Positions 3,373 to 28,362 of a stretch of DNA of 64,000 nucleotides are shown piece after piece. Position 1 is the first letter of the stretch, and each line of letters starts with the position of its first letter. Source of the stretch: Thalassotalea psychrophila. Lineage in GTDB: Bacteria; Pseudomonadota; Gammaproteobacteria; Enterobacterales; Alteromonadaceae. Location of the stretch: positions 496,001-560,000 of the forward strand of contig NZ_CP134145.1 in NCBI RefSeq assembly GCF_031583595.1, read 5' to 3'. The notes beneath the pieces are model-generated. The model did no database searches and was not told the DNA's origin. It worked only from the letters and a program-made list of their open reading frames with translations. The translations under genes were made by a program, and so were the position numbers.

Positions 3373-6300
3373 ATGTCGAATAAATTTAAATATAATAAAA
3401 ACCATAAGGCTAGTAAGCTTGCGGGGGCGATAACGCTGGCTTTACCACTTTCCCTGTTGTCTGTTGGCTCGGCAAATGCGGCTTTTCCGACATTTGAGGA
3501 CGAAGAGAAATATTACAACCATGTTGCTTCAAGCGTGCCAGGTAAAAATTTAATTGTTAACCCGTCTCTTAGTATTGCGAATTGTGACGAATATGAAGAT
3601 GCGGTTAAAGCTGCCGTTTCTGTTGCTTGTACAGGTACAGACGGAAAATTGTGGAGCTGGACGGAAGACTTAACCTCTGCATCAGGAGGAAAAGATAATG
3701 GTGAGCATTATGCTCCTCCAGGAGCAACTGTTGATATTGCTAAATTGGGTAAACTGGGTAAAAATAAAACAGCCAAACTAAGCGAAGCTATCGCTGTACA
3801 AGGTGTTAGCGAAATTTATGTTGAATTTTACTTACTTCATAATGACTTAAACGGCGACGAGGGGGCAAAGTCTGAAGTTAACTTGGTACTCGATGGTGCC
3901 GTTATTCCTATAACAGAGTATACAGTTCATAATACAAAGGACTTTACAGCATGGGCTTATACTGTTGATGCTAATGATGGACTCACATTAGTTGATGGCA
4001 AGTATACCGGTTCAGTTAACGTCGAATTTATTAATTCTAACACTAATAAAACACTTTTCGATAATGTCTTTTTAAGTACCGATGTAGTTATTCCTCCTGC
4101 ATTTATTAATACTCCTCCTGTGATAAGTGGTGCAGCTAATGTTACGGTGCCTTCTTCAAGCCTTGACAGTGCTTTAATTACTGATACGAGCATCGTTGAC
4201 TTTTTAGCCGCGGTGAGTGCGAGCGATGTTGATGACGGTACGCTTACCGTTACCAACGATGCCCCTGATGTTTTCCCCTTGAGTGATACAGTAGTTACCT
4301 TCACTGTTACCGATAATAATGGTAGTACGGTTACCGAGCAAGCAACCGTTACTGTTGTAGACACGGCGCCAGTAATGACCCTAAATGGTAATGCTTCTGT
4401 ATTTACCCAACAAAATATCACTTATGAAGACCAAGGCGCTACCGCTGTAGATAATGTTGATGGAGATATCACCGAAAATATTGTTACTACTGGTACGGTT
4501 GATACAGCAACGCTGGGTACTTACACCATTACCTATACCGTCTCTGATGGGGTCAATCCTGATGTGGTGAAAACCCGTACAGTTAACGTTGGAGGGCTGG
4601 ATACCGATGGCGATGGTGTTTCCGATGATGACGATGACTTCAAACTCGATGCCGCAGCCAGTGTAGACACGGATGGTGATGGCTTTCCAGATGCGTGGAA
4701 TGAGAATAAAAGTGCCGATGATTCAACTACAGGCCTTAGCTTAGATACCGATATCGATGGTGACGGCGTATTAAATGAAAATGATGCCGATCCCTTTGTC
4801 GCTGTTGCTCAGGCAGACGATCTCGATAGAGACGGTGTCCATGATGATGTTGATACCGATGGGGTGAATATTACAGATGCTGCCACAGCGTTAGAAGCGG
4901 CTATTTTAGCCAATGGCGCGATAAGTCTTGATGCCACAGACATTGACACAGATATTATTCCAGTTGTTACCGCCTTTGTTAGCCAGGTATTAGCTGATGC
5001 GAATGTAACTGACGTCGCCATTGATGCTATTAGCGGTGATGCGATAAGACGATCAGGATCTCATGAGCTAATGGTAGACCTTATTAACACCGTCGGCTCT
5101 TTGACGTCTTTTGACCTAGTATTGAACATCACGCCGAATGTGACTATTCCGCAAACTGTATGGGTAAAAGCCGATGAAGAGATTGCCATTAACCTGACTT
5201 TATCTGGTGATGCAATATCATACCCAGTAACCTTTGATTACCGATTCGAAAGAATCGTCGATGAAACTGTTGTAGAAGCTGATGAAAATGCAGAAGCTGA
5301 TTTGGATGCAAATTTGATTGAAGCAGGTGCTTTATCAATTGAATCAGGTCAGGCGCATATGTTGAAGCTACCAGGACAAATGGATGGCGGTTATCAAGTG
5401 GTATTCTCTGAAGGTATTGATAGGAACGCGGCCATTGTTGGCAATGCAGTTACTGTAATTAATGCGGTAGAAAATATTGCTCCGGCATTAGATTTTGCTC
5501 TAAGAAATGATGATTCAGTGGTTACTGTACTCGACCAAACTGCAACTGATGCAGAAATTGCTATCACTATCACCGATGTTGATATGTTCACTGAGCATAA
5601 CGTGGTAGTTACCCTAAATGGCGAAGAAGTGTTTACAGCCATCAATGATATTAATAACCCAGTGATCCTTGTTCCCCTTGATATAGCAACATTAGGTGCA
5701 GGTGAACACGAGTTGCAAGTTGTAATAACTGAAATTGCAACCGATGAGTTATATAGTACTCCACTAACCATTCCATTGACTATTTTAGCTGCCTTACCTG
5801 TGCTAGAAGACACCATCCAAGTTGAGCTAGAGGATGGTAGCTTTGAAGACGTAATTGTTGATACAGATGGTGATGGTATCTCGGATGCAGAAGAAGGTTT
5901 TGGTGATAGCGATAGTGACGGCATTGCCGACTACCTAGATGGCACAAATGGTGTTAATGAGCAAACTCTTTCTGTCGCTGTTGTTACTACCGATGATAAT
6001 GGAGAAGAGGTAGTAACAATAGAGGAAACTAGCATCACGGTTGAAGATGGCTTAACCATTGCGATTGGTGATACCTTAAAAGCGTTGGAGTCAGGTTTAT
6101 CTGCTGATATTGGTGCTGAAGTAAGCGTTGAAAACTATGCTGAAGTGTTGCAAGTAACTAATGATGCTAAAGCAGTTGTTGAAGCTTCGTTAGAGGATGT
6201 TAGAGGGTTCTTGATTCCTTTAGTTGACTTTAAAATAAAAGGTGTTGATGCGGGCGCTACGGTGAACATGAACATCAAACTACCTACTGCGCTACCGAAA

Positions 6301-6915
6301 AAATCTGCTTACCGTAAAGTTCAAGACGACGGAACGTTAGTCGACTTTGATACCACTAATGGTGACTCTATCATGTCGGCAATGAGTGATAATCAGGGGG
6401 ACTGTCCTGCAGCTGATTCAGCTGATTGGCAAGCAGGATTAGTTAAAGGTAACGATTGCGTGAAAGTTGCCATTGCTGATGGTGGCCCTAATGATGCGGA
6501 TGGTAGAGTCAACGGTGTTATTGTTGACCCGGCAGTTTTAGTTGAGGTGAAGACTGCGCCAGCAACGACAGTAAGTGCTGATTTGTCTACTATTAAATCT
6601 GGTGATTTAGTTACATTAACGGCAAGCTCAGCCAATCCCGAAGGCGACGAACTAACTTACACTTGGGTCGAAACTTCCGGTGCAGATATAACGCTTACTG
6701 GCGCTGATAGCAAAGTAGCAACCTTTACCGCCCCTAATGCTAATGCTACGTTAACGTTCGAACTTACCGTGAGTGGTCCATTTGAACCAACTACGACAAG
6801 CTTGTCAGTAGATGTTACCAAGGCTAATAACGACAGTGGTGGTAGCTTAGGTACCAGCGCGTTATTGCTCTTAGCTGGTTTGATTGGTTTGCGTAGAAGA
6901 GTAAAGCGTAGCTAA
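3373..6915 (+). CDS. large secreted GlyGly-CTERM surface protein with Ig-like, Ca-binding and PKD-like domains
   Basis: A secreted protein of 1180 residues counted from the ATG at 3373. That start has GGGGA just upstream, unlike the in-frame ATG at 3361. A signal peptide ends near SANAAFP (about residue 37). Domains in order are: an N-terminal beta-rich domain (about 38-245) containing NLIVNPS and KTLFDNVF motifs; a HYR/cadherin-like domain (about 250-335); a DUF5011-type Ig-like domain (about 336-410); Asp-rich thrombospondin-3 calcium repeats (about 412-500 and again near 845-870); an unassigned middle; a PKD-like domain (about 1060-1150); and a C-terminal SGGSLGTSALLLLAGLIGL then RRR tail. 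That tail fits the GlyGly-CTERM signal processed by rhombosortase and exported by type II secretion. The N-terminal domain is clearly homologous to that of the protein at 25852. Its role is unknown; glycan binding at the cell surface is inferred from the locus. Confidence 0.85.
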   Translation: MSNKFKYNKNHKASKLAGAITLALPLSLLSVGSANAAFPTFEDEEKYYNHVASSVPGKNLIVNPSLSIANCDEYEDAVKAAVSVACTGTDGKLWSWTEDLTSASGGKDNGEHYAPPGATVDIAKLGKLGKNKTAKLSEAIAVQGVSEIYVEFYLLHNDLNGDEGAKSEVNLVLDGAVIPITEYTVHNTKDFTAWAYTVDANDGLTLVDGKYTGSVNVEFINSNTNKTLFDNVFLSTDVVIPPAFINTPPVISGAANVTVPSSSLDSALITDTSIVDFLAAVSASDVDDGTLTVTNDAPDVFPLSDTVVTFTVTDNNGSTVTEQATVTVVDTAPVMTLNGNASVFTQQNITYEDQGATAVDNVDGDITENIVTTGTVDTATLGTYTITYTVSDGVNPDVVKTRTVNVGGLDTDGDGVSDDDDDFKLDAAASVDTDGDGFPDAWNENKSADDSTTGLSLDTDIDGDGVLNENDADPFVAVAQADDLDRDGVHDDVDTDGVNITDAATALEAAILANGAISLDATDIDTDIIPVVTAFVSQVLADANVTDVAIDAISGDAIRRSGSHELMVDLINTVGSLTSFDLVLNITPNVTIPQTVWVKADEEIAINLTLSGDAISYPVTFDYRFERIVDETVVEADENAEADLDANLIEAGALSIESGQAHMLKLPGQMDGGYQVVFSEGIDRNAAIVGNAVTVINAVENIAPALDFALRNDDSVVTVLDQTATDAEIAITITDVDMFTEHNVVVTLNGEEVFTAINDINNPVILVPLDIATLGAGEHELQVVITEIATDELYSTPLTIPLTILAALPVLEDTIQVELEDGSFEDVIVDTDGDGISDAEEGFGDSDSDGIADYLDGTNGVNEQTLSVAVVTTDDNGEEVVTIEETSITVEDGLTIAIGDTLKALESGLSADIGAEVSVENYAEVLQVTNDAKAVVEASLEDVRGFLIPLVDFKIKGVDAGATVNMNIKLPTALPKKSAYRKVQDDGTLVDFDTTNGDSIMSAMSDNQGDCPAADSADWQAGLVKGNDCVKVAIADGGPNDADGRVNGVIVDPAVLVEVKTAPATTVSADLSTIKSGDLVTLTASSANPEGDELTYTWVETSGADITLTGADSKVATFTAPNANATLTFELTVSGPFEPTTTSLSVDVTKANNDSGGSLGTSALLLLAGLIGLRRRVKRS

Positions 6916-6971
6916 AACAAGTCAAGTTTAAGCGATTAAAAAGGAGCCTTAGGGTGGCCTGATAACAAATT

Positions 6972-7129: not shown

Positions 7130-7183
7130 GATATAGATATAGATATAGATATAGATATAGATATAGATATAGATATAGATATA
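7130..7183 (+). repeat. 6-bp tandem repeat (GATATA) x9 upstream of a PspC-like gene
   Basis: Nine exact copies of GATATA lie between the terminator of the preceding gene and the PspC-like gene. A consensus -35 hexamer TTGACA occurs at 7105-7110, so the array begins 19 bases downstream, about where a -10 box would be expected, and its units resemble -10 sequences. The array is direct observation; promoter variation is inference. Confidence 0.92.
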
Positions 7184-7314
7184 GACGCGTGGTTCTACTT
7201 CAGCTTTGAGCGATTAAGCGACATACGCTGTTGAATATACACCTGCATTTTACGCAGCGAAGTAGGCGTTTCCTATTAATGAAATTGTTAGATGCTAGGG
7301 CATATGGAGAGCCA

Positions 7315-12036: not shown

Positions 12037-13512
12037 GTGAATAGTTATATTAAGCTTTTTGTTCAGTGCGCTTTTCTTACCATAATAAGTTGGCCAGCAT
12101 TTGCAGTTGGTACTAGCAATAATAAGCCTAATATCATCCTTATTATGGCTGATGATCTAGGTTATGGTGATACCGGTTTTACCGGTAACAACATCATTAA
12201 AACGCCAAACCTAGATCAAATGGCGAAAGAAGGCGCCATCATGACTAATTTCCATGCTGGTGCTCCAGTATGCTCTCCAACACGTGGCACTTTTCTCACC
12301 GGCCGACATCACCATAGATACGGTATTTTTTATGCCAACGTTGGTCACCTGCCAAAAGAAGAAATTACTCTTAGCGAAATTCTTAAAGAAAATGGCTATA
12401 CCACCGGCCATTTTGGTAAGTGGCATTTAGGTACCCTCAGTAAAGAATTCTCACCTAAGGGCAAGAAACGAAAACCATTAGAAAATTTCTCTCCGCCAGC
12501 CTGGCATGGCTATGATACTTCCTTTGTTACAGAGTCAGCGATTGCACTATGGAACCCAGGACAAGGGCGCCGAGCTGTCAACAATCCGTTTTGGCAAGAT
12601 GGTGTAGCACTTGAACCGTCCGATCCCAGTTTAAAAGGGGGCGCTAGTAAAGTAGTGATGGATAGGGTTATGCCTTTTATTAAGCAAGCAGTAACAAATG
12701 AACAACCATTTTTTACTGTTATTTGGTTTCATGCGCCGCATATGGATGTGGTTGCTGGACCTAAATATTTGGCACAATATAAAGGCTATGGTGAAGCGGC
12801 ACATTATTATGGCGTGGTCACTGAAATGGATGAACAAATAGGACGTTTACGTGAAGAATTAAAGCGTTTAGGCGTTGATAAAAATACCTTAATAACTTTT
12901 ACCAGTGACAATGGCCCGGAAGGTAAAAAAGCAAAAGGCAGAACCGCCGGTGTTACCGATGGTTTAAGAGGTCGAAAACGAGATTTATATGAGGGTGGTG
13001 TTCGTGTTCCAACCCTTGCTCTATGGCCTGACAATATTGCAGCGGGCAGTGTTATTACTACTGCCGCCTCTACTTTAGATTATTTGCCTACTATTAATGA
13101 AATTATCGGCTACCAAATGCCTGATGAACGGCCGATAGATGGTGAAAGTATTTTGTCATTATTGGTCGGTGATAAAGCTAACCTTGTAGGTTCATCGCCA
13201 GTACAGCAAGTGTCTAAGCGTTCTAAAGCCATTCCTTTTTATGCCAAAGGTAAATTATCACTCCTTGATGGCGACTTTAAGTTAGTCACTAGTGTTAACA
13301 ATATCGATAAATCAGAGCTGTATAACTTAGCGACGGATCGCCGCGAAATCAACGAAATATCCGCTAAACACCCACAACAAGTTAGCATCATGACTCAATA
13401 CCTAAAAGACTTTATCGCTTCGGTAAAAGCGAGTCATCGAGGGGAAGATTACCCTAAACAAAATTTCATACCGGTTGATAGTTGGCCAAAATATAAGAAG
13501 AGTAAAATATGA
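12037..13512 (+). CDS. secreted sulfatase (formylglycine-type, S1 family)
   Basis: A 491-residue arylsulfatase-type enzyme of the alkaline phosphatase superfamily. A signal peptide ends near WPAFAVG (residue ~24). Metal-binding Asp residues are in IILIMADDLGYGD (about 33-45). The catalytic Cys79 sits in CSPTRGTFLTGR, the C-x-P-S/T-R site converted to formylglycine. Later metal and sulfate-site segments are GKWHLG and TSDNGPEG. GTG is the start, with AGGAAG seven bases ahead. It overlaps the next sulfatase gene by four bases (ATGA), so translation is coupled. It probably removes sulfate esters from oligosaccharides in the periplasm. The regiospecificity cannot be read from sequence. Confidence 0.93.
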   Translation: MNSYIKLFVQCAFLTIISWPAFAVGTSNNKPNIILIMADDLGYGDTGFTGNNIIKTPNLDQMAKEGAIMTNFHAGAPVCSPTRGTFLTGRHHHRYGIFYANVGHLPKEEITLSEILKENGYTTGHFGKWHLGTLSKEFSPKGKKRKPLENFSPPAWHGYDTSFVTESAIALWNPGQGRRAVNNPFWQDGVALEPSDPSLKGGASKVVMDRVMPFIKQAVTNEQPFFTVIWFHAPHMDVVAGPKYLAQYKGYGEAAHYYGVVTEMDEQIGRLREELKRLGVDKNTLITFTSDNGPEGKKAKGRTAGVTDGLRGRKRDLYEGGVRVPTLALWPDNIAAGSVITTAASTLDYLPTINEIIGYQMPDERPIDGESILSLLVGDKANLVGSSPVQQVSKRSKAIPFYAKGKLSLLDGDFKLVTSVNNIDKSELYNLATDRREINEISAKHPQQVSIMTQYLKDFIASVKASHRGEDYPKQNFIPVDSWPKYKKSKI

Positions 13513-15032
13513 AGATGGTTCAGCTGGTTATGGTATTTATTCTGTTTGTCAGTCATTTGGCAAATGCTATTGATGGTAAAAGTGATAAGCCACTCAATGT
13601 CTTATTTATCTTAACCGATGACCAAGCAATAGATACCATTGGCGCCCATGGCAATAATCGTATTTCAACGCCTAATATAAACAGTTTAGCTAAAAAAGGA
13701 ATGAGTTTTACCCATGTATTTAATCAAGGTTCATGGTCACCAGCCGTGTGTGCACCTTCTCGTCGGATGATAAATTCAGGTCGCCATATCTTTCATACCG
13801 GTATGGGGCCGAATAACCATAAGCAAGGTAATGATGCTAAAGACTTTAAAATGTTTGGCGAAACTTTTAAAGAAGCAGGCTATACCACCTTTATGTCGGG
13901 TAAATGGCATTTACCCATGCCGATTTTTGAACGAAGTTTTACCGAAGGAAAAGCAGTATTTAAAGGTGGCATGGCTCATTTAAAAAATGGTGGTCAATGG
14001 CAAGCTGACTATGTTGATTATAATGATAAAGCCAAAGGTGATGAAAAATATCATGCTTACAAAGGCGATAAACACAGTAGTGAAATGATTGCAGAAGCGG
14101 CGATGGACTTCTTATATCAGCAACAAGCAGCAAACAAAAAAGCCAATCCGTTTATGATGTATGTAGCTTTCTTAGCGCCTCATGATCCGCGTCAGTCACC
14201 TGATAGTTATGTTGCTCGTTACCCTGGCAATTCAATTAATTTACCGATCAGTTTTTTACCCGAACATCCCTTTGATCAAGGCGATCATTATATTCGTGAT
14301 GAAAACTTAGCGGATTTTCCCCGCACACCGGCAGTGGTAAAAGAATTTATTGGTGAGTATTATGCGATGATAGAGCACATGGACAGCCAGATTGGTCGCG
14401 TGCTTGAAGCACTTGAAGCCTCTGGTCAGGCTGATAATACCTTAATTGTTTTTACCTCTGATCATGGTTTAGCAGTGGGTAAACATGGTTTGTTAGGTAA
14501 ACAAAATCAATATGATCATAGTGTCAGAGCGCCATTTATTGTCAAAGGTCCGAATGTGCCACAAGGTAAAACGGCCAAAGGCATGTTTTATATCAGTAGT
14601 GCGTTTCCAACGGCGGTTGACATGGCAGGGCTTAAAATCCCTGAATCGGTACAAATGCCAAGTGTCGCTGCCTTAATCAGAGGCGAAAAGGTACGTGGTG
14701 ACAAAGACACTATGTTCGACAGCATCTATAGTAGTTACCGTCATTTTCAGCGTATGCTCAGAACAGATGATTATAAATTGATTTATTATCCTCATCTTAA
14801 GAAAACTCAATTATTTAATATGCAAACTGATCCTAATGAATTGGTTAATTTAGCAGACAATCCTGAACATACAAAACGCATATCAGCAATGATGGTTAAG
14901 CTTGAATCATGGAAACAAATCGTTGCAGATCCCCTAGATAATAATGATATTGAGAACAGTTTTAAAGTAATGGGTGGTGTTAAAGACAAAGACCATCGTT
15001 CGAGAGATAGGAAAAATAAAGCAAATCATTAA
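13509..15032 (+). CDS. secreted sulfatase (formylglycine-type, S1 family)
   Basis: A 507-residue sulfatase with a signal peptide ending near SHLANAIDG. Metal-site motif VLFILTDDQA is at about 31-40. Catalytic Cys81 is in CAPSRRMINSGR. A GKWHLPMP segment and FTSDHGLAVGKHG later provide the remaining active-site ligands. The body resembles iduronate/choline-sulfatase-like S1 members more than the arylsulfatase-A-like neighbour at 12037. The ATG overlaps the previous stop by four bases. The C-terminal end is basic (KDHRSRDRKNKANH). It is part of the five-gene sulfatase tandem. Substrate position is not assignable. Confidence 0.92.
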   Translation: MKMVQLVMVFILFVSHLANAIDGKSDKPLNVLFILTDDQAIDTIGAHGNNRISTPNINSLAKKGMSFTHVFNQGSWSPAVCAPSRRMINSGRHIFHTGMGPNNHKQGNDAKDFKMFGETFKEAGYTTFMSGKWHLPMPIFERSFTEGKAVFKGGMAHLKNGGQWQADYVDYNDKAKGDEKYHAYKGDKHSSEMIAEAAMDFLYQQQAANKKANPFMMYVAFLAPHDPRQSPDSYVARYPGNSINLPISFLPEHPFDQGDHYIRDENLADFPRTPAVVKEFIGEYYAMIEHMDSQIGRVLEALEASGQADNTLIVFTSDHGLAVGKHGLLGKQNQYDHSVRAPFIVKGPNVPQGKTAKGMFYISSAFPTAVDMAGLKIPESVQMPSVAALIRGEKVRGDKDTMFDSIYSSYRHFQRMLRTDDYKLIYYPHLKKTQLFNMQTDPNELVNLADNPEHTKRISAMMVKLESWKQIVADPLDNNDIENSFKVMGGVKDKDHRSRDRKNKANH

Positions 15033-15102
15033 ATCGCTAAAACAGACACTTAGATGTTAAAACCGCAATACGAACTTATAAAAATAAAAACGGAAAGTAT
15101 TT

Positions 15103-16779: not shown

Positions 16780-16792
16780 TTTGGGAACAATT

Positions 16793-18709
16793 ATGAAGTT
16801 AAGAATTTTTTCAAACAAGGTTAAACCTTTAAGTATTTTATTGGTCGGTTTGTTAGCTATTGCTGGCTGTAGTCAGCAAGAAAGTGCTAGCGAAGCCAAA
16901 GATACCAGTGCTAAGCATTCAGCCGAAAAACAGCCGCGTCCAAATATCATTTTAGTGATGACAGACGATCAAGGTTATGGCGATTTTGGTATGCATAATA
17001 ATCCAATAGTGCAAACACCAATTTTAGAAGAGTTAGCTAACGAAAGTCAGCGTTTTACCAATTTCCATGTTGACCCAACGTGTTCACCAACCCGTGCAGC
17101 ATTGATGAGCGGAAAATACTCATTACGCGCTGGCGTTTGGCATACAGTGATGGGCCGTCATATGCTCAACGACCAACATCATACTTTACCTGAAATATTA
17201 TCTGATGCTGGCTATAACACTGCAATGATTGGTAAATGGCATTTAGGTGATAATTATCCGTTTCGTCCACAAGACCAAGGCTTTGACCATGTTTTAAATC
17301 ATGGTGGTGGCGGTGTCGGTCAAGCGCCTGATTATTGGGAAAATGACCAATTTGACGATACTTATTTCCTTAATGGCAAAGAGAAAAAATATAATGGTTT
17401 TGCTACCGATGTTTGGTTTGATGAAGCGATAGACTTTATTCACCAGCAAGCCAATAAAGAAGCGCCATTTTTCTTGTATTTATCTACTAATGCACCTCAT
17501 GTTCCTTGGCGCGCACCAGAGCAATATATTGAACCTTATAAAGCCTTAGGCTTGAACGATGACATGGCGAAATTTTATGGCATGATCACCAATATCGACG
17601 ATAATATCGGTCGATTACGTAACGCGATGCGCAGTGATAACATTGAAGATAATACCATTTTTATTTTTATGACTGATAATGGCTCATCAATGGCACACAA
17701 AAGTAATGGCGAGCCATTAACCTGGCTTGATGACGATGTCATCGCAGCCATTGAAGCGAAAACCGGCAAAAAACTAGACAGCTTAAACAACTATATGCGC
17801 GCAGGTAAATCATCTACCTATGAAGGTGGTCATCGCGTGCCATTTTTTATTCGGTGGCCAAACGGAAGTCTGGGTCAACCGGGCGAATTTAATGACTTAA
17901 CCGCGCATGTTGACGTACTTCCTACCTTACTTGATTTAGCCGGAATTGATGGCCAAAACATCGAAACCGATGGCATCTCACTGGTACCAGCGCTTAAAGA
18001 AGGCAGTGCCTTACCAGATAGAACTTTGATAGTGACTAACCAAAGGGTATTAAATCCAGATCCAGAGCGCCCATATTCTGTTATGCAAAGCAATTGGCGC
18101 TATGTTCATGCCGAGCAAACTGGCGGTGTAGAACTCTTTGATTTAACTAATGATCCCGGGCAAACCAATGATATTAGTGCTCAACATCCTGAAAAGGTAA
18201 TTGAGTTAGCCCAAGCTTATGAGCAATGGTGGCTCCATGTAATAGGCAAAGGCACACCAACAACACGGCCAGTTATTGGCAGTGAACATGAAAATCCTTC
18301 AAGATTAACCGGTATGGACTGGTTATCACCTAATACTGACCAAGTACCTTGGTGGCCTGGTTTTGGCGATGACAAATGGGGTAAAGGTCATGGTTGGATT
18401 GGTAATGAAGACAAATTTATGGTGTCTCCTTGGGCGTTAAAAGTTGCCGAAAATGGCAATTACACCCTGACCCTGTATTTACACGATATTCCAGCGAAAA
18501 AAGTCATTGGTAAAAGTTTTGCTCATTTACAACTTAATGGCGAAACCATAACACAGCCTATTGCAGCAGGTGCTACATCTGTTGAGTTTAAAGTGCCATT
18601 GGTACAAGGCGATATAGATATTCGCGCTTGGTTTGATGAACAAACTGACGACAGCGCTTTAAGTACTGGCTTACCTGCCTTCTATATGTATGTAGAAAAA
18701 CAAAACTAA
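16793..18709 (+). CDS. lipoprotein sulfatase with C-terminal beta domain (twin copy 1)
   Basis: A 638-residue S1 sulfatase. The frame opens at a TTG at 16781, but the ATG at 16793 gives a clean lipoprotein signal (LLAIAGCSQ, Cys26). Metal-binding NIILVMTDDQGYGDFG is at about 51-66. Catalytic Cys97 is in DPTCSPTRAALMSGKYS. After the core (ends near residue 485) there is an extra domain of about 130 residues with NYTLTLYLHDIP and HLQLNGE, which looks like a beta-sandwich accessory domain. The next gene encodes a close paralogue with the same architecture, so a tandem duplication is likely. The intergenic gap between the copies contains a short inverted-repeat element. Confidence 0.92.
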   Translation: MKLRIFSNKVKPLSILLVGLLAIAGCSQQESASEAKDTSAKHSAEKQPRPNIILVMTDDQGYGDFGMHNNPIVQTPILEELANESQRFTNFHVDPTCSPTRAALMSGKYSLRAGVWHTVMGRHMLNDQHHTLPEILSDAGYNTAMIGKWHLGDNYPFRPQDQGFDHVLNHGGGGVGQAPDYWENDQFDDTYFLNGKEKKYNGFATDVWFDEAIDFIHQQANKEAPFFLYLSTNAPHVPWRAPEQYIEPYKALGLNDDMAKFYGMITNIDDNIGRLRNAMRSDNIEDNTIFIFMTDNGSSMAHKSNGEPLTWLDDDVIAAIEAKTGKKLDSLNNYMRAGKSSTYEGGHRVPFFIRWPNGSLGQPGEFNDLTAHVDVLPTLLDLAGIDGQNIETDGISLVPALKEGSALPDRTLIVTNQRVLNPDPERPYSVMQSNWRYVHAEQTGGVELFDLTNDPGQTNDISAQHPEKVIELAQAYEQWWLHVIGKGTPTTRPVIGSEHENPSRLTGMDWLSPNTDQVPWWPGFGDDKWGKGHGWIGNEDKFMVSPWALKVAENGNYTLTLYLHDIPAKKVIGKSFAHLQLNGETITQPIAAGATSVEFKVPLVQGDIDIRAWFDEQTDDSALSTGLPAFYMYVEKQN

Positions 18710-18733
18710 CCGAAACTTTCTGTTAGTAATTTA

Positions 18734-18812
18734 ACCACAGAGGCTTCGCGACACAGAGAAAAGATAATGATTACATGCGTTTTCTCGGTGTAGTGCGTAG
18801 CACCTCGGTGGT
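18734..18812. repeat. short imperfect inverted repeat between twin sulfatase genes
   Basis: ACCACAGAGG...CACAGAGAAAA at the left is mirrored by TTTTCTCGGTG...CACCTCGGTGGT at the right, over about 79 bases. It resembles the dispersed ACCACAGAGG-type intergenic repeats found in many bacterial genomes. It lies inside the presumed operon and could form an RNA stem that trims or attenuates the transcript (inference). Confidence 0.65.
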
Positions 18813-18844
18813 AAATTTTTAAGTTTAATCAATAAAATTAATGA

Positions 18845-20749
18845 ATGAGAATAATGATGTTAGAGAAGTTTAGAAAATCACCAATAGGTAAACAAATTAT
18901 CAAGCCTTTTGTGATCAGTATTTTTGCTATGAGTACATTTTCCATATTTTTATATGCTAATGCAAACCAACATGAGAAAGATACCGTACAGTCTAGTCTT
19001 CCTAATATCATTTTAGTGATGACCGACGATCAAGGCTATGGCGATTTTGGCCATAATAACAATCCGATTGTTCAAACACCGGTTATTGATCAACTTGCTA
19101 ATAAAAGTATTCGCTTTACAGATTTTCATGTCGACCCTACGTGTTCACCAACGCGAGCGGCATTAATGAGTGGTCAATATTCTTTACGCGCAGGCGTTTG
19201 GCATACCGTGATGGGTCGTCATATCTTATCTGATAAAATTAACACCTTACCTGAAGTGTTAAAAGATGCTGGCTATAAAACTGGTATGGTAGGCAAATGG
19301 CACTTAGGTGATAACTATCCTTTTCGTCCGCAAGATCAAGGTTTCGATCATGTACTGATGCATGGTGCTGGAGGCGTAGGTCAAACACCAGATTATTGGG
19401 GCAATACTCAATTTAATGATACCTATTTTCTAAACGGCACACCAAAAAAGTATAACGGCTATGCTACCGATATTTGGTTTGATGAAGCCATCGATTTTAT
19501 TGATAAAAATGCCAATAAAGCGGATCCCTTTTTCTTATACCTAGTCACAAATGCGCCTCATGCGCCATTTCGTGCGCCTGAAAAATATATTCAGCCCTAT
19601 CGTGATTTGGGCGTGCCGGAAACTCTGGCACTTTTTTACGGCATGATCACCAGCATAGATGACAACATGGGAAAACTACGCAAAGCGATGCAAGATAATA
19701 ATATCGTTGATAATACCATCTTTATTTTTATGACAGATAATGGTTCAGTGATGGGCGTACAGTCTAAGAAGTTAGTTTCTGATGAAACTCGCTCGATCAT
19801 TGAGAAAAAATTAGGCCAAAAAATACCTAGCCTTAATTATGATATGCGCGGCGCTAAGAATTCTAGCTACGAGGGTGGCCATCGAGTACCATTTTACATC
19901 TCTTGGCCAAATGGCGGCTTAATTGAACCTGGCAGCATTGATGGTTTGTCAGCACATTTTGATGTCATGCCAACCTTGTTAGATTTAATCGGCGTTGATA
20001 CCAGTACACTTGATACCGACGGTATCAGTTTCAAGTCGGCGTTGAAGCAGGGGACAGAGCTTCCTGACAGAGTGCTGACGGTCACTACTCAACGGGTGTT
20101 GAACCCAGATCCTAATCGTCCTTATGCGGTAATGCAGGGTAAATGGCGTTATGTTAAGGCGAGTGGTAATAAAGATGCCCTCGAGTTATTTGACTTAAGT
20201 AAGGATCCTAGCCAAACAGAAAACGTGAAGGATAAATACCCTGAAGTTGCTAACAACATGGCCAAGCAATATCAACAGTGGTGGCAGTATACTACCGCTA
20301 AAGGTTTAGATACTACTCGAGCAATTATTGGCTCAACTCATGAAAACCCATCACGTTTAACCAGTCACGATTGGTTAGCTCCTAACACTAAACAAGTAGG
20401 GCATACTACCGGTTTTGGTGACGATAAATGGGCCAAAAAAGGCTGGTTAGGAAAAGAAGAAAATTTTCAAATATCTCCTTGGAAAGTTAAAACGGCAGCA
20501 AAAGGTTTATACCAGTTTACGGTGTTATTTCACGATAAACCTGCCAATAAAGTGATCCCAAGACAATACGCCCATTTAACCATCAATGGTCAACCATATG
20601 TTAAAAAACTAGCCAAAGGCGCAACCCGTGTTAGTTTTGAATTGCCATTAGAGAAACAAAACCTAGATATTAAAGCTTGGTTCTCGGACAGTAAAAATAA
20701 TTCAGATAAATCGTTAGCCGCATTCTTTATTTATGCTAAGCGAATTTAA
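18845..20749 (+). CDS. secreted sulfatase with C-terminal beta domain (twin copy 2)
   Basis: A 634-residue S1 sulfatase, a close paralogue of the gene at 16793 along its whole length. The two share DPTCSPTRAALMSG, LRAGVWHTVMGRH, GKWHLGDNYPFRPQDQGFDHVL and the accessory C-terminal domain. Catalytic Cys100 is in the CSPTR core. The N-terminal signal here is a long hydrophobic segment ending near LYANANQ and lacks a lipobox Cys, so this copy may be soluble in the periplasm while its twin is lipid-anchored. Alternative ATG codons at 18854 and 18857 are possible. The different anchoring of otherwise similar enzymes may reflect use at different cell sites. The specificity is not known. Confidence 0.92.
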   Translation: MRIMMLEKFRKSPIGKQIIKPFVISIFAMSTFSIFLYANANQHEKDTVQSSLPNIILVMTDDQGYGDFGHNNNPIVQTPVIDQLANKSIRFTDFHVDPTCSPTRAALMSGQYSLRAGVWHTVMGRHILSDKINTLPEVLKDAGYKTGMVGKWHLGDNYPFRPQDQGFDHVLMHGAGGVGQTPDYWGNTQFNDTYFLNGTPKKYNGYATDIWFDEAIDFIDKNANKADPFFLYLVTNAPHAPFRAPEKYIQPYRDLGVPETLALFYGMITSIDDNMGKLRKAMQDNNIVDNTIFIFMTDNGSVMGVQSKKLVSDETRSIIEKKLGQKIPSLNYDMRGAKNSSYEGGHRVPFYISWPNGGLIEPGSIDGLSAHFDVMPTLLDLIGVDTSTLDTDGISFKSALKQGTELPDRVLTVTTQRVLNPDPNRPYAVMQGKWRYVKASGNKDALELFDLSKDPSQTENVKDKYPEVANNMAKQYQQWWQYTTAKGLDTTRAIIGSTHENPSRLTSHDWLAPNTKQVGHTTGFGDDKWAKKGWLGKEENFQISPWKVKTAAKGLYQFTVLFHDKPANKVIPRQYAHLTINGQPYVKKLAKGATRVSFELPLEKQNLDIKAWFSDSKNNSDKSLAAFFIYAKRI

Positions 20750-20877
20750 AAGCAAAACTAATTTTAGGTCAGGTTGTAACCTGATAAAAAGAACAATATT
20801 GAAAGATATCAGGATAACCCCCTGAGCCATATTTAAAATATTTTCATGAAACATTAAAAATAATAAACGAGAAAATT

Positions 20878-22443
20878 ATGAATAAAAAAAATATCAGTAA
20901 AGCTATTTATGCTGCATTATTTAGCCTGCCTTTAATATCGATGTCGGCACAGGCGTCACAGGCGGAAATTGGCTGTACTAGTGAAGAACTAGCTGTACAT
21001 AATGCGATGTCTGAAGGCGAAAAACAAAAGTTCTACGGCTTTGAAGGCTCAGGTATTCCTTGCTCAACCGAAATGAAAACGCTGACTAATGAATGGCAGG
21101 AGCTCAATAGCTCGGCAGCGAAACAACGAGGCCGTGATCGTTTTAGAGAAAACAAGTACGGCATGTTTATTCACTGGGGACTGTATTCAACGTTGGGCGG
21201 AGTTTACCAAGGTGAAAAAATGGAAGATGGCGGCACAGGGCCATCGGTTGCAGAATGGATAATGCGCCGTAAAGAGATCCCACGCTCAGAATACGCTAAA
21301 CTTGCTAACAACTTCAATCCAGTCAAATTTGATGCTGAACAGTGGGTGGACATTGCTAAGGCAGCAGGCATGAAATATATAGTGATCACTTCAAAGCATC
21401 ACGATGGGTTTGCCCTGTTTGACTCTAAAGTCAATGATTTTAACGTGGTTAAAGCCACTCCTTTTAAGCGTGATATTATCAAAGAGTTGGAGCAGGCCTG
21501 TAAAAAAGCCGGACTGGCTTTTGGCGTATATTATTCGAATGCATTGGACTGGCGTGATGGTGGCGATAGTGGCCTAAAAGATTATGGTCCGGGCCCTGGA
21601 ATAAAACCAAGACGCGGCGCTTTTGTCAACAAGTTTGATCCATCTCCAGTCACTTTTGATGAGTATATTGAAAATAAATCACTGCCTCAGGTTAAAGAGT
21701 TATTGGCTAATTATGATTTAAGCCAAATTTGGTTTGATACTCCAATTTATATTCCGCCTAAGCATAGTATTGATTTTTACCGCACTGTGTATGACGCCAA
21801 TCCTGAAATTTTAATTAACGCACGCATTGGTAACGGCTTTGCCGATATTGGCACTCCGGGTGATAACGTAATACCTGATAAAGCAAGTGCCAACACTTGG
21901 GAAGGCATAGCCACCACCAATCATTCATGGGGGTATAAATCGTATGATAACGACTGGAAGTCGCCTTTGGAGACCCTTTACTGGTTAATTGCTAACGTTA
22001 GTAGAGGCGGAAACTTCTTGTTGAATGTCGGCCCCATGGGCTCCGGTGAGATCCCTGCCCAGTCGGTGAGCAACTTAGTTGCTGTGGGTGATTGGTTAAA
22101 AGTTAACGGTGAGGCTATTTATGGCACTGTGCCCTGGACCTTAGATCATGAAGGTCCAACTCAGATCATCAGGAAAGGTAAAAATAAAACCGGTAATTTT
22201 GATTTCACTAACAAAGATTTTTGGTTTACCCAAAAGGGTGACAAAGTTTATGTTATATCGTTATCGCGTCCTGCGGCAAACAACATAACCGTAGCATCTC
22301 TTAAAGGTTTAGGTATCAGTTCAATACGGTTGTTAGGTCAACCGGATGTGATCACTTGGCAAGAAGGGGTTGAGGGGATTGACATTAAATTACCAACCTT
22401 AACCAATAAAGGGATCGGTTACGCACTAGAGGTTTCATTTTAA
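20878..22443 (+). CDS. secreted alpha-L-fucosidase, GH29
   Basis: A 521-residue GH29 alpha-L-fucosidase with a signal peptide ending near AQASQAE. The GH29 signatures are all visible: YGMFIHWGLYS (about 94-104), ITSKHHDGFALF (about 170-181), GLAFGVYYSNALDWRD (about 212-227), and the nucleophile region LSQIWFDTP with candidate nucleophile Asp287. GGNFLLNVGPMGSGEIP is the conserved late motif. It releases terminal alpha-L-fucose, with retention of configuration. It follows the sulfatase twins by 128 bp on the same strand and is probably the last gene of that operon, since a terminator lies downstream. It supports a fucose-containing substrate for the locus. Confidence 0.95.
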   Translation: MNKKNISKAIYAALFSLPLISMSAQASQAEIGCTSEELAVHNAMSEGEKQKFYGFEGSGIPCSTEMKTLTNEWQELNSSAAKQRGRDRFRENKYGMFIHWGLYSTLGGVYQGEKMEDGGTGPSVAEWIMRRKEIPRSEYAKLANNFNPVKFDAEQWVDIAKAAGMKYIVITSKHHDGFALFDSKVNDFNVVKATPFKRDIIKELEQACKKAGLAFGVYYSNALDWRDGGDSGLKDYGPGPGIKPRRGAFVNKFDPSPVTFDEYIENKSLPQVKELLANYDLSQIWFDTPIYIPPKHSIDFYRTVYDANPEILINARIGNGFADIGTPGDNVIPDKASANTWEGIATTNHSWGYKSYDNDWKSPLETLYWLIANVSRGGNFLLNVGPMGSGEIPAQSVSNLVAVGDWLKVNGEAIYGTVPWTLDHEGPTQIIRKGKNKTGNFDFTNKDFWFTQKGDKVYVISLSRPAANNITVASLKGLGISSIRLLGQPDVITWQEGVEGIDIKLPTLTNKGIGYALEVSF

Positions 22444-22548: not shown

Positions 22549-22756
22549 ATTAAAATTTTATATAAAACTACATGAGAATCGTTCTTGTTACTGTATTTAA
22601 ATAGGAAAGTAACACATACTGACAATATCATTTAAATATATATTTGTTGAATAATTCTATATTTATCAATCTGTTGTGTTTATTTTTGAACTATTGAAAA
22701 GTTTTCAAATGATTTGCTGGACAAAAACTGAACGGTGTTGTTATTATATGTAAAGA

Positions 22757-22774
22757 TACACCGTATAAGGTGTA
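22757..22774. promoter_or_regulatory. palindrome upstream of the large TonB receptor
   Basis: TACACC and GGTGTA flank six bases (GTATAA). A further ACGGTGT about 30 bases upstream pairs with the ACACCGT inside it, so alternative stems are possible. It lies 30 bases before the receptor start codon in the 5' leader. Candidate operator or leader structure, with no known consensus matched. Confidence 0.4.
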
Positions 22775-22803
22775 CTTATTATAATAAATTCAGTGAGGAT
22801 TAC

Positions 22804-25737
22804 ATGTCTATAGTTACAGGTCATAAAAGCATAGCATTCGCGAAAAATAAAATTTCAGTTGCCATATCCATCGCTCTTCTTCCGTTCATGTTCGGTACGA
22901 GTATGGCTGCAAACGCTGCAGAACCTGTAGCTCATAAAGAAGTAACAGAAGCGAGCAAAGAAACTAAAAAGGTTGAGGCTGAAAAGGTTGAGGCTGAAAA
23001 GGTTGAGGCTGAAAAGGCTCAATCTACGCTGGAAGACGAAACTGAAGTGATAGTGGTCACTGGTTTTCGTAGCAGTGCTAGTCAGCAGCGTTTCAACAAA
23101 AGAAACTCAGATAATATTTCCGATTCTATTTTCGCAGAAGACATGGGTAAAATGCCTGATGAAAATATCGCCGAAGCCATGCAACGCATTACCGGTGTCG
23201 GAATCGACCGTGTTGATGGTGAAGGTTCTACTGTTACCATTCGTGGTATTGACCCAAGTCTTAACGTGATCACCTTGAATGGTCAAGTAATGACCAATGG
23301 TGGTGATGATAATGCTATTGATTTATCCACTATGTCGGCGGATATGTTAAAGTCGATTGAAGTTATAAAAAGTCCCAGTGCCGACCATGACGAAGGCAGT
23401 TTAGGTGGTTCAATTCTCTTAAAAACTTCTCGCCCTTTACAAGCGAAAAAAAGAAAAATTAGTGCCTCAGTGCAATTACAAAGTGATGAGTTAGCCGACG
23501 AACAAGATGTCTTGGCAAAACTTGGCTTTATAGATAATTTTGATAATACCTTTGGTGTTGCCTTTTCATTATTTTATGATGAAAAATCAACTCGCCAAGA
23601 TTACTTTAACAGTACCCAGTGGAATGTTTTTGATCTTACCTCAGCGCAAAGCGCCCAAACAGGTAAAGACTTAGGTAGCATTAAAAGTTATGAGCCAAAA
23701 CAGTTTGATTTAGGGATCAAGTTTAAAGAGCGAGTACGCGTAGGTGGCGGCGTAACGTTTGAATATCTACCTGACGATGTTAGTTCGCTGGTGTTAGATA
23801 TGTCTTTTACTAGAAAAACTGATGATTCCATTAGCCATCAAACACGTGTTCAAGGTGTACGTACTGATGCTATTTATGACGAAGTTAGCGGTTCTGCAGT
23901 GGTCGCTAGTGCTAATGCTAACGGCAATGAATTGTCTAGACAAAAAGAAGTTGAAACGGATACTACAACGATATCTTTGGCTTATGATCGCGAATTTGGT
24001 GATTGGCTATTCACCACTAAGCTAGGTTACAGTTTAACTGAAGCAACAGATGTACTAAATCGTCGAATTACCTGGAAACCCGCCAAAACAGATGTCACCA
24101 CTGATTGGCTCGGTGAAAATGGCGGTTTTCATGACATTCCAACCATTCAATGGCATACCGAGTCGGGTTGGTTTGACCCCGCTCAATTGGAACTAAATTC
24201 TTTTTTTGACGATGACAGAGATGTTAAAGATGAACTCGTTTCTATCAGTTTTGATCTCGAGCATGATTTGGACTTTGGCCCGCTAACGGCGATAAAATTT
24301 GGCGCTAAATATTTTGAACGTTCCAAAGATACTGCCGATACTCAAGGCAAAATTAAATATAGTGATATTAGTGACGGCGAAAAGGTTTACTTGGCAGATC
24401 ATAGCCTTGATTTCCCCGTGGATGACTATTTTGACGGTATCGTTGATAATGTGATTCCTGGCTTTGACGTGCCAAATATGGACGAAATATATGATACTTA
24501 TCTTCCTGAGGGGCATGAACCGATAGTTGATCCTAATAACACCCATTTAATAGATACTGAGGCCGCCGCTGCATATGTAAAACTAAACTATGCTTGGTTT
24601 GATGATCGACTGTTAGGTGATTTCGGTGTTCGTGCGGTTAATACCAAAATTTCCGCGGAAGGGCATGGCGGTATCAACTATCCAGATGAGATCTTAAGCG
24701 CGCCTATTTACGAAGAAAACGACTATACCAATATTTTACCCAGCTTTAACGGACGCTTTATCATTAATGAAGAGATGGTGTTACGCTTTAGTGCTGCGCA
24801 AGTAATGGCGCGCCCAACTTTTACTGAAGTTAGACCGGGTTTTGTCTTTCAAGCCACCAGTAATGTTTTGCGGGGAAATCGAGGTAACCCTAAGTTAGAT
24901 GCATACGAAGCCAATCAGTTTGATATTTCTTGGGAGTGGTATTATGGAGAAACAGGCATGGTTTCGGTAGCCGCTTTCTATAAAGATATTACCAGTTTTA
25001 TTTATAAAACCACCACAGAGTTATCTCAAAAAGAGGTTTTTGGTGACCAATTTGGTCCCGGACCTTGCCCAGAATATCTTGATACCATACCTGAAGGTGC
25101 AGATCCTGACGCCGCTGAACTTTGTCGAAGGGTTACTGATGTACCAGTGCGGGGATCTTCTAATGGTTCTAACGGTACCGTTGAAGGTATAGAGTTAAGT
25201 TACCAACAAGACTTTACTTTTTTACCGGGCTTTTTAAGCGATTTTGGTATTGTTACCAATTATACCTATACCGACAGTGAAGCGCCTTACTCAACGGAAG
25301 AAGAAGGCAGTGATGTCTATTTTGACGGCTTTCCGTTCTTAAATACCTCAAAAGATACCTTTAATAGCACCTTGTACTGGGAGAAAAATGGCCACTCGTT
25401 ACGTCTTGCCTATAACTATCGCTCACCACGTTTAACCAATGCCGTGCAGTTAGAATCTTCACAGTGGACAGATTCACGTGAATCGTTAGATTTTTCCGGT
25501 AATATCGCGCTTACTAAGCAAATTAAGTTAACTTTTGCCGCTACTAACCTAACGAATGAAAGCAATCGTATGTTCGTCACCCGCACCATTGGCAAACAAG
25601 GGGAATATAGTGATGGTACTGCTTGGAACTTGCCAGGAGAAGGTAATGCCTTAACTAGTGATGCACCAGATTGGCGTACCGCGAGTTATCAGCATAATGG
25701 TAGAACTTACCGCATAGGTATTTCGGCAAAATTCTAG
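22804..25737 (+). CDS. large TonB-dependent receptor, carbohydrate-type
   Basis: A 977-residue TonB receptor counted from the ATG at 22804, which has AGGA six bases upstream; the frame itself extends to 22735. A signal peptide ends near AANAAEP. A TonB box is in TEVIVVTGFRSS, and the plug has EAMQRITGVGIDR and VTIRGIDPSLNVITLNGQ, the pattern of the ~1000-residue Caulobacter/Xanthomonas-type receptors linked to polysaccharide use. Between signal and plug is a Lys/Glu/Val-rich linker with three perfect 15-base repeats (22969-23013, KVEAE x3), which could vary in length. The C terminus ends in Phe (GISAKF). The gene for a GlyGly-CTERM surface protein follows after 114 bp. It is the best candidate for oligosaccharide import in this locus. 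Confidence 0.94.
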   Translation: MSIVTGHKSIAFAKNKISVAISIALLPFMFGTSMAANAAEPVAHKEVTEASKETKKVEAEKVEAEKVEAEKAQSTLEDETEVIVVTGFRSSASQQRFNKRNSDNISDSIFAEDMGKMPDENIAEAMQRITGVGIDRVDGEGSTVTIRGIDPSLNVITLNGQVMTNGGDDNAIDLSTMSADMLKSIEVIKSPSADHDEGSLGGSILLKTSRPLQAKKRKISASVQLQSDELADEQDVLAKLGFIDNFDNTFGVAFSLFYDEKSTRQDYFNSTQWNVFDLTSAQSAQTGKDLGSIKSYEPKQFDLGIKFKERVRVGGGVTFEYLPDDVSSLVLDMSFTRKTDDSISHQTRVQGVRTDAIYDEVSGSAVVASANANGNELSRQKEVETDTTTISLAYDREFGDWLFTTKLGYSLTEATDVLNRRITWKPAKTDVTTDWLGENGGFHDIPTIQWHTESGWFDPAQLELNSFFDDDRDVKDELVSISFDLEHDLDFGPLTAIKFGAKYFERSKDTADTQGKIKYSDISDGEKVYLADHSLDFPVDDYFDGIVDNVIPGFDVPNMDEIYDTYLPEGHEPIVDPNNTHLIDTEAAAAYVKLNYAWFDDRLLGDFGVRAVNTKISAEGHGGINYPDEILSAPIYEENDYTNILPSFNGRFIINEEMVLRFSAAQVMARPTFTEVRPGFVFQATSNVLRGNRGNPKLDAYEANQFDISWEWYYGETGMVSVAAFYKDITSFIYKTTTELSQKEVFGDQFGPGPCPEYLDTIPEGADPDAAELCRRVTDVPVRGSSNGSNGTVEGIELSYQQDFTFLPGFLSDFGIVTNYTYTDSEAPYSTEEEGSDVYFDGFPFLNTSKDTFNSTLYWEKNGHSLRLAYNYRSPRLTNAVQLESSQWTDSRESLDFSGNIALTKQIKLTFAATNLTNESNRMFVTRTIGKQGEYSDGTAWNLPGEGNALTSDAPDWRTASYQHNGRTYRIGISAKF

Positions 25738-25851
25738 AAGAGATAAGTGAGTAGTTTCATATTACCGCGTTGATATGAAACGAACCATGTGCTTAAAATA
25801 ATAGTAAGCACCATAAAAGTATTTCAATGAAATATAGATTGGAGAACGAAC

Positions 25852-28362
25852 ATGACAATTAATAATAAAAACAAGAAAAAATTGAGCAAACTAGCCTTAC
25901 TTGCTCTGCCTTTTACCTTAACTGCGCTAAATAGCGCACAAGCCGCAGAGTTTCCGATATTTGGCGAAGATGAATTATATTATAACCATATTTCTTCCAG
26001 TGTTCGGGGTAGTAATTTAATCGTAAACCCCTCGTTTGATATCTTATCTTGCGCTGACTATGAAGCCGCGGTGTTAGCGGCAAGTGTTGAAGAGTGTACC
26101 GACGGACAAACATGGGGCTGGACAAACGCAACTCAACAAGGACAAGGTCAAGATAATGCTAACTATGCCCCTGTGAATGATGCTGGCGAGCAAGTGAATG
26201 TGAGTGGCGGCAAAATCGGTAAAGCAAGTATAAACAAAACTGTCACCCTGAGTCAGGCTGTTACTGTCGTTGAGGCTACAGAAATTTATGTTAAATATTA
26301 CCTCTTGCATAATGATGCTGATGGTGGCACTGAACCTAAATCTTCAGTTTATTTAGTGGTAGATGGTGCCGAAGGGGCAGTAGTAAAACACTTTATCGAA
26401 GAGTTAACCGAGCATAATACCAATAATGACAGTACACCATCTTTTGCTTTTGATGTCAGTGATATTGTTGGCATTGAGTTAGTTGATGGCCTGTATACCG
26501 GTTCAATTAATTTGGAATTTGTTAATACTAACACTAAGAAAACACTCTTTGATAATGTGTTTTTAGGCAGTAATGCTGTACCAGCTGACGAAGATGAGGA
26601 TGGTGTTCTTGATGACAAGGATGCCTTTCCTCGAGATGCAGCAGCCAGTATTGATACAGATGAAGATGGTATGCCAGATGATTGGAATGACGATAAAACC
26701 GCAGAAGATTCAACTTCAGAACCTGCTTTGGTTATAGATCTCGACGATGATAACGATGGTGACAGCGATGTTGATGAATTAGCTGCCGGTGCCGATCCAC
26801 TGAGTGTAGATAGCCACTTAGCCGATATTGATGGCGATGGCTGGTTTAATGCCAATGATAATGAAACTGAGTTTCCAAACACAGATGCTTACCCTAGATT
26901 ATCTTATGTGCATCAGTCAGGCTTAACCAATGTATTAGCCCCTAATGGCATAACTGATTATTCTCCCGATGCTGAAATTGCAATACTGGTAGAAAACAAG
27001 TTGAGTGCAGCGAACAACGAATGGGAATGGTTTACTGCAAAGGACACTACGGCAGTGGTTACTCATGAAGTTGCCAATGGCATCACTGGTCATGACGGCG
27101 AACTAACCAATGCCTATAGATTATCGATAGATGCTGGCACTACCGAAGGTAAAACAATCCAATTCGCTAGCCCGATCCTCACCACAGAAAATATTAATGT
27201 CAATATAGTCCGCGTTGCTGGTTGGATGAAAGTAACCGGCCCAGAAGTTAATGACACTGTCGATGCTGTTACTGTTCAAGTAAGATCAAATAACTCTACT
27301 GATAAAGAGGTAAGTGCTAATACTTGGACCTTTAGTGCTGAATCAGCAGATACGGCAATATACAACAAAGATCTTGCTGACAACAATGGCTGGCATTACT
27401 TTGAAAATCAATATTTGCTTGCTAATGACATTGAAGACATTAGAATTCAATTGAAAATAAAAGCGGATGTTGAAGGCGTTGTCGCGTTATTTGATAATTT
27501 AGAAATTAACTTTATCAATAACGGTGATTTAGACGAAGACGGTATTTTAGATGCTATCGATCGTGATGATGACAATGATGGTATTCTAGATGGACTTGAT
27601 GATATGCCATTAGGAGAGTACGCAGGAAATAGTGATGATGATTTACTATTAAATGGCTATGATGATGACTTTGATGGTGATGGTATTGCCGATGCTTTTG
27701 ACGACACTTTGCCAGCAGTTACCAGTGTAGATGCACCTTATGTTTATGATAATGATGTAGTAAGCATTGAGGTAATTGCATCAGCCCTTAATATTGATGA
27801 CGCAGTTCTTACCTATAGATGGACCCTTAATGGTATTCTTTTACCAGAAGAAACATCATCAACCTTGAATTATAATGTAGTTGATATTTCAGGTGAGGAT
27901 ATTGCCTTTGAATTAACGGCAACTGCAGGTGGTGTATCGAGTAGTCAGTCATGGAGTCTGACAACCAACACTTGGCCGACAGTGGGTATCACCTCTGATA
28001 ATAGCAGCGGCGAAGGGGTAACATTTACCGCAACGCCAAACGATATAGACGGTGATACGGTAAATATCGAATGGTTTGTTGATGGACTAAATGTTCAAGT
28101 AAGTCCGGGGGCTGAAAGTTTCACCTTGTACTATGCCGATTTTAATGACGAAGTATTACCTAGCATTGATGTCTATGCGATAGTAACTGATGTAAATCGC
28201 CCCGTTCATAGTGGAACATCTGATACAGTAACCGTTTTCATTCCGCTTAAAGAACCACTTGATCAACAACCTAATAGTGGTGGCAGTACCCAACTAGGGA
28301 TGTTAGCGATGTTAGTTCTTGGCTTAACCAGAAGGTTTTCAGCGCGAACTAAACTGAAATAG
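25852..28362 (+). CDS. secreted GlyGly-CTERM protein, paralogue of the protein at 3373
   Basis: An 836-residue secreted protein with GGAGA seven bases before the ATG. The signal peptide ends near NSAQAAEFP. The N-terminal domain (about 32-240) aligns with the protein at 3373: YYNHISSSVRGSNLIVNPS and KTLFDNVF occur in the same order. It is followed by Asp-rich calcium repeats (about 243-300), a beta-sandwich domain that looks carbohydrate-binding-like (about 340-560), another Asp-rich block (about 560-620), two Ig-like segments, and a C-terminal SGGSTQLGMLAMLVLG then basic tail fitting GlyGly-CTERM. It directly follows the TonB receptor gene, so the two may work together at the surface. Glycan binding is inferred; no catalytic motif was found. 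Confidence 0.85.
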   Translation: MTINNKNKKKLSKLALLALPFTLTALNSAQAAEFPIFGEDELYYNHISSSVRGSNLIVNPSFDILSCADYEAAVLAASVEECTDGQTWGWTNATQQGQGQDNANYAPVNDAGEQVNVSGGKIGKASINKTVTLSQAVTVVEATEIYVKYYLLHNDADGGTEPKSSVYLVVDGAEGAVVKHFIEELTEHNTNNDSTPSFAFDVSDIVGIELVDGLYTGSINLEFVNTNTKKTLFDNVFLGSNAVPADEDEDGVLDDKDAFPRDAAASIDTDEDGMPDDWNDDKTAEDSTSEPALVIDLDDDNDGDSDVDELAAGADPLSVDSHLADIDGDGWFNANDNETEFPNTDAYPRLSYVHQSGLTNVLAPNGITDYSPDAEIAILVENKLSAANNEWEWFTAKDTTAVVTHEVANGITGHDGELTNAYRLSIDAGTTEGKTIQFASPILTTENINVNIVRVAGWMKVTGPEVNDTVDAVTVQVRSNNSTDKEVSANTWTFSAESADTAIYNKDLADNNGWHYFENQYLLANDIEDIRIQLKIKADVEGVVALFDNLEINFINNGDLDEDGILDAIDRDDDNDGILDGLDDMPLGEYAGNSDDDLLLNGYDDDFDGDGIADAFDDTLPAVTSVDAPYVYDNDVVSIEVIASALNIDDAVLTYRWTLNGILLPEETSSTLNYNVVDISGEDIAFELTATAGGVSSSQSWSLTTNTWPTVGITSDNSSGEGVTFTATPNDIDGDTVNIEWFVDGLNVQVSPGAESFTLYYADFNDEVLPSIDVYAIVTDVNRPVHSGTSDTVTVFIPLKEPLDQQPNSGGSTQLGMLAMLVLGLTRRFSARTKLK

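Follow-up and report, generated by a model that had tools for sequence, protein, structure and literature searches.

Two of the closest described counterparts of the proteins considered here come from Bacteroidota. SusD-like lipoproteins, whose fold is helical (TPR-like), are encoded next to a TonB receptor in polysaccharide loci and hold glycans at the cell surface, and the surface glycan-binding proteins (SGBPs) are built of modular beta domains and are likewise encoded in the locus. Less is clear, to our knowledge, about the capture of large sulfated polysaccharides by the receptors of Gammaproteobacteria. SusD-like proteins are said to be known from Bacteroidetes only (PMC8319329), and transporters and TonB receptors of Colwellia echini are called analogous to SusC/SusD (PMC6952198).

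Here we followed up a reading, made from the DNA letters alone, of a 64,000-nucleotide stretch of the Thalassotalea psychrophila genome (NZ_CP134145.1, positions 496,001 to 560,000; this whole stretch is called the window, and coordinates refer to it unless another piece is named). The window holds a polysaccharide locus and encodes two paralogous proteins, surface protein 1 and surface protein 2. Our confidence is about evenly balanced that they serve gammaproteobacterial polysaccharide loci as modular glycan-binding (tethering) proteins of the cell surface and are not obligate subunits of a receptor, with glycan binding suggested by fold and context. They resemble SusD-like lipoproteins in gene position, beside a TonB receptor within a polysaccharide locus (one of the two window proteins), and in the proposed holding of glycans at the surface. 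Unlike those lipoproteins, their two modelled domains are all-beta jelly-rolls and not helical, they end in a rhombosortase-type tail (below the cut-off for one of the two) instead of a lipoprotein signal, and they are not obligate receptor partners; the SusD models of Pfam gave no match to them at E up to 1, nor to their N-terminal domains alone at E up to 5. With SGBPs they share modular beta domains and encoding within the locus, but the anchor, the Asp-rich stalks and the phylum differ, and binding is here proposed on indirect grounds.

The two surface proteins and their predicted folds

Surface protein 1 (3373..6915, + strand, 1180 residues) comprises a signal peptide, an N-terminal domain (NTD), beta domains, Asp-rich repeats, choice-of-anchor U and PKD domains and a GlyGly-CTERM tail. 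Surface protein 2 (25852..28362, +, 836 residues) begins 114 bp past the stop, at 25737, of a TonB-dependent receptor gene (22735..25737, +; the frame opens at 22735 and a likelier ATG, by eye, lies at 22804) whose product matches TIGR01782 with 555 bits. The sequence-only reading had placed the second gene at this distance and had described the pair as paralogues with a common N-terminal domain of ~200 residues that it did not recognise, and all of this held, both genes being open reading frames. The NTDs (3484..4089, +, from the alignment, as residues 42-243 of the frame that opens at 3361; and 25948..26571, +, by alignment and by fold prediction as a jelly-roll) are 49% identical over 228 aligned columns that include the signal peptide end (E 3e-53), and Pfam gave no significant match for the NTD, the NTDs alone having been searched at E up to 5. 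A third paralogue, of 1595 residues and with two copies of the second jelly-roll domain (JR2) described below, lies elsewhere in the same genome, beyond the stretch available to the sequence-only reading (G000:C1:840538-845322).

In surface protein 2 the NTD is followed by a first Asp-rich, TSP3-like stretch (26584..26856, +, bounds by eye), JR2 (26866..27522, +, by fold prediction), a second Asp-rich stretch (27523..27711, +, bounds by eye) and a GlyGly-CTERM-like tail (28276..28335, +). Of the calcium repeats claimed earlier, Asp-rich TSP3-like stretches are indeed seen in both proteins, but they stay under the Pfam cut-off in surface protein 1 and are not called in surface protein 2; they pass the cut-off in the third paralogue. 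The claim that both tails are of rhombosortase type fared similarly: the tail of surface protein 1 (6835..6900, +) narrowly passes TIGR03501 (15.6 bits when scored with its neighbours in the frame, against a cut-off of 15.5), whereas that of surface protein 2 falls just below it (14.3 bits), though by eye its relatives have tails of this type. All nine proteins viewed by eye terminate in Gly-Gly followed by a hydrophobic segment and basic residues, and P0014 likewise. P0013 has Ser-Gly-Ser instead of Gly-Gly, and its contig carries a truncated GlyGly-tail protein (L042 1-756) whose match to the C-terminus of surface protein 1 spans 120 residues at 52% identity. Across the genome we counted 24 GlyGly-CTERM matches at E up to 10, 18 of them over the cut-off; the tail of the third paralogue is absent from these 24. 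A rhombosortase over the cut-off is encoded outside the window, and the genome also holds two GspD secretins over the cut-off (GspD was the sole type II component searched). According to PMC6219818, a tail of this kind in VesB of Vibrio cholerae leads to cleavage by rhombosortase, addition of a glycerophosphoethanolamine-containing tag and surface display dependent on the type II secretion system. The proteins described here resemble such substrates in a tripartite tail (over the cut-off in surface protein 1, just under it in surface protein 2) and in the presence of rhombosortase and a type II secretin in the genome; VesB is a protease, whereas the surface proteins are not, and modification of their tails is proposed by analogy. 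No catalytic family matched them in Pfam/TIGR-type profile searches.

The NTD and JR2 are predicted, from modest models, to be almost entirely beta jelly-rolls that resemble carbohydrate-binding modules (CBMs). This agrees with the earlier expectation of a fold other than that of SusD, the rest of the chain lying outside the models. CBM matches stand among the top fold rows for both domains, alongside other jelly-rolls. The likeness to CBM4, CBM16, CBM22 and the porphyran-binding CBM 8xmz is one of predicted fold, at about 8-17% identity in the fold alignments, and the surface proteins differ from CBMs in having no recognised catalytic domain on the same chain. None of the Pfam CBM models matched significantly (the best was CBM_25 in one of eight JR2 members, E 0.022), and in PDB profile searches no match fell below E 0.1. 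JR2 also listed the SGBP-B structure 7kwc with a Foldseek E of 9.6e-6, yet the superposition is poor (TM 0.35/0.32, rmsd 13.5). SusD is absent from the fold lists of both domains, which proves nothing alone.

Distribution and genomic setting of the family

The family is rare. A profile of the NTD matched 6 of 395 genomes of the host's taxonomic family, 1 of 394 of its order (its own genome) and 2 of 369 of its class, these samples overlapping; the second class-level match (E 0.004) was discounted as false because its frame resembles a murein ligase. At the genus level the family occurs in 5 of 15 genomes, and one further genome of the genus matched P0008 solely across a 68-residue repeat stretch. 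The profile (A3) contains sequences of every matched genome of the taxonomic family but G202 (5 of 6 supplied rows). Leave-out profiles confirm, at the level of sequence, the homology of the most divergent NTDs, those of G010 and G008: without these two rows the profile refound both at full length (E 9e-14 and 7e-9 per 100,000 sequences), and a single-sequence search missed them. Omitted one at a time, P0008, P0009 and P0010 were refound at E 3e-42 or better, and a reverse profile of G010 and G008 only found these three and not P0002 or P0003. We rejected the idea of a wide family on the basis of a full-length profile run against 5.8 billion proteins, for which 5 members, two of them the window's own, stood among the 32 matches listed from 7988 scored candidates; none of the other 27 covers more than 14% of the query, and many have TSP3-type Pfam labels. 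Three of the listed proteins beyond the earlier set were inspected, and P0014 proved to be a member and P0018 and P0028 not. P0005, P0007 and P0014 are three further database members, known from protein sequence alone.

Genomic context is known for eight family genes, and every one of them belongs to a locus for polysaccharides or sugar catabolism. The third paralogue comes after LacI, sulfatase, GDSL, sulfatase and GH3 genes, and a homologue follows a GH3 gene, with GDSL and sulfatase genes upstream, in four more genomes of the genus (G003, G013, G010 and G008). LacI was identified in two of these five GH3 loci, the others being cut or not covered at that point. The family gene is the last one on its strand in three of the five; in G008 a 308-codon same-strand frame follows, and the G003 contig stops 0.6 kb past the gene. 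Wherever the GH3 gene is at least 75% identical to that of the own genome, the family protein follows (5/5 loci); among more distant GH3 loci, none of 38 examined (of 41) had a family protein or GlyGly-like tail on the piece downstream, two of these pieces being short (1769 and 5498 bp) and at most three candidates per genome being scored. In G202, which belongs to another genus, the family gene lies beside sugar-kinase, aldolase/dehydrogenase, sugar-isomerase-like and alpha-L-rhamnosidase genes. The same contig carries a TonB receptor (L047 2775-4697, -) that is 90% identical to a 640-residue TonB receptor of the window (8660-10582, -), a likeness that possibly reflects recent transfer.

A fixed pairing with TonB receptors, as supposed at the outset, did not survive. 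Six of the eight family genes have a TonB receptor within 5 kb; the nearest one seen in G202 is ~12 kb off, with the contig cut 4.6 kb away on the other side. Surface protein 2 is the only family member whose gene comes directly behind a same-strand receptor gene; in the GH3 loci, receptor and family gene are convergent and separated by a leucine-rich-repeat gene. In the own genome one of three copies directly follows a receptor, and a TIGR01782 receptor lies no more than 3 kb from two of the three members (chance ~0.001); the nearest such receptor to surface protein 1 is 16 kb away. We likewise rejected a general association of GlyGly proteins with TIGR01782 receptors, one of the 24 matches being within 5 kb.

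The TIGR01782 receptor of the window, searched at E up to 1e-200 with at most two candidates per genome scored, gave one match outside its own genome among 295 genomes of the taxonomic family, an orthologue in G009. Nine genes of that locus have their best matches in the window (GntR 79%, five sulfatases 66-74%, fucosidase 71%, beta-helix protein 69%, receptor 52-56%), the beta-helix gene being relocated to before the receptor. Ninety-nine bp after the G009 receptor comes a 1054-residue beta-helix protein with CBM96 (L045 9360-12524, -), which is without NTD, JR2 or GlyGly tail. The receptor is followed by an unrelated protein, and this receptor type therefore does not require a surface-protein partner; together with the distances in the own genome, this rules out receptor pairing as a rule. 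The slot behind the receptor again holds a protein with a binding module.

Upstream of surface protein 1 we noted an 8-bp tandem repeat (7.6 copies, 3281-3341) that ends ~30 bp before the gene and could tune or switch its expression. A long tract of this kind occurs at one of the eight family genes; the G003 gene has a shorter 11-bp repeat (2.6 copies) upstream.

Divergence and the likely role of the family

We compared identities across the five GH3 loci, with approximate domain bounds and with an incomplete receptor sequence from the own genome. Identity is 76-92% for GH3 and 58-85% for the GDSL proteins and sulfatases, but 22-82% for the NTD, 26-60% for JR2, 31-62% for the C-terminal 330 residues, 45-83% for the receptor and 32-73% for the leucine-rich-repeat protein in the four loci that have it (L006 2090-3706; L011 15431-17035; L028 13310-14926; L029 13510-15126, the last by identity only). 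Relationships change along the chain: G010 and G008 are 82% identical in the NTD but 36% in JR2, and G008 and G003 are 60% identical in JR2 but 24% in the NTD. Approximately unbiased (AU) tests, run over 15 topologies, rejected the best GH3 tree on the NTD data (p 3e-25) and the best NTD tree on the GH3 data (p 8e-4). The sulfatase data rejected the GH3 tree (p 1e-5), and the GH3 data did not reject the sulfatase tree (p 0.06). For JR2 the best grouping was G008 with G003; its tree is poorly resolved, and recombination there is suggestive only, because 7 of the 14 other topologies were not rejected at 0.05. A fair reading is that evolution was mosaic across the whole operon and most strongly so at the surface protein.

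On the glycan-tethering reading, the signal peptide seen in the sequence would direct Sec export, and rhombosortase may then cleave and lipid-tag the tail before type II passage, as in VesB and with both components encoded, bringing the protein to the outside of the cell. There, one or several jelly-roll modules would bind sulfated or deoxy-sugar polysaccharide, as fold and context suggest, held out on Asp-rich, probably calcium-binding stalks, and substrate would be concentrated locally for the receptor and surface enzymes. The slot behind the receptor can hold another binding-module protein, and the modules diverge quickly and would also recombine quickly. Of the proposal that the proteins are functional analogues of SusD, there remain a domain without significant Pfam match, its CBM-like predicted fold, the sugar loci and the missing SusD match, but not the fixed receptor partnership. 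In the fold comparisons of NTD and JR2, however, non-sugar jelly-rolls score as high as CBMs. With distinctly less confidence, we tentatively suggest a rhombosortase-anchored, exchangeable class of glycan-capture proteins that would take the SusD/SGBP role in some marine gammaproteobacteria, as hypervariable domain-swapping modules replaceable by unrelated binding proteins beside an otherwise conserved locus. Literature on GlyGly-CTERM/rhombosortase did not concern polysaccharide loci, as judged by titles and the start of abstracts, and items naming GlyGly-CTERM and TonB-dependent together had other subjects by title. Our searches found none combining rhombosortase with polysaccharide utilization, no title among the matches listed was on this family, and in the available part of PMC3237569 the terms TonB and carbohydrate do not occur.

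Repeats, beta domains and an anchored tail also make up an adhesin-like architecture, and the proteins could anchor cells to algal surfaces or particles, co-regulated with the locus and without helping uptake. CBM-like folds would serve attachment too, the family gene is not always directly beside a receptor, and the TSP3 cell-cohesion protein MtsC is matched weakly (E 0.042). We consider a general adhesin rather unlikely in view of the eight sugar loci, of the same GH3 directly upstream in 5/5 genomes that hold it and of the position of surface protein 2 behind the receptor, all of which are nevertheless still compatible with attachment. The fast divergence and domain replacement would be explained if the main selective role were that of a variable surface antigen or shield facing phages or predators. 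Four genomes with one operon show GH3 at 86-92%, NTD at 22-82%, JR2 at 26-36% and a receptor down to 45%, the NTD and GH3 data reject one another's best tree, and the 8-bp tract lies just upstream of the surface protein 1 gene. Phages and predators may, however, drive divergence in any exposed protein, even one with a different role, the operon enzymes recombine too, as the sulfatase data indicate, and a long tract is found at just one of eight genes; we regard this explanation as improbable. That the family consists of unrecognised lyases or hydrolases acting on polysaccharide seems highly improbable to us: the CBM96 beta-helix protein in the G009 slot may be an enzyme, but no catalytic family matches the surface proteins, and both domains that were modelled are jelly-rolls of a type often seen in binding modules. 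On the glycan-tethering reading, the surface proteins are testable candidates for polysaccharide capture, and the conserved enzymes next to a variable surface protein offer a ready-made comparison between strains.

Remaining features of the locus

Upstream of the TIGR01782 receptor the window encodes glucuronate isomerase and mannonate dehydratase (87-2765), a GntR regulator (10715-11650) and five sulfatases with an alpha-L-fucosidase of GH29 type (12037..22443, +). Downstream of surface protein 2 are genes for a beta-helix protein (30901..33093, +; weak match to a GH141 insertion domain, E 0.051; 69% identical to its best match in the G009 locus), a sulfatase and a second fucosidase. Genes for a molybdopterin oxidoreductase with Fe-S and DmsC-like membrane subunits lie at 43047-47350, and other short tandem repeat tracts were seen at 7130-7185, 28475-28510, 48669-48707 and 62397-62497.
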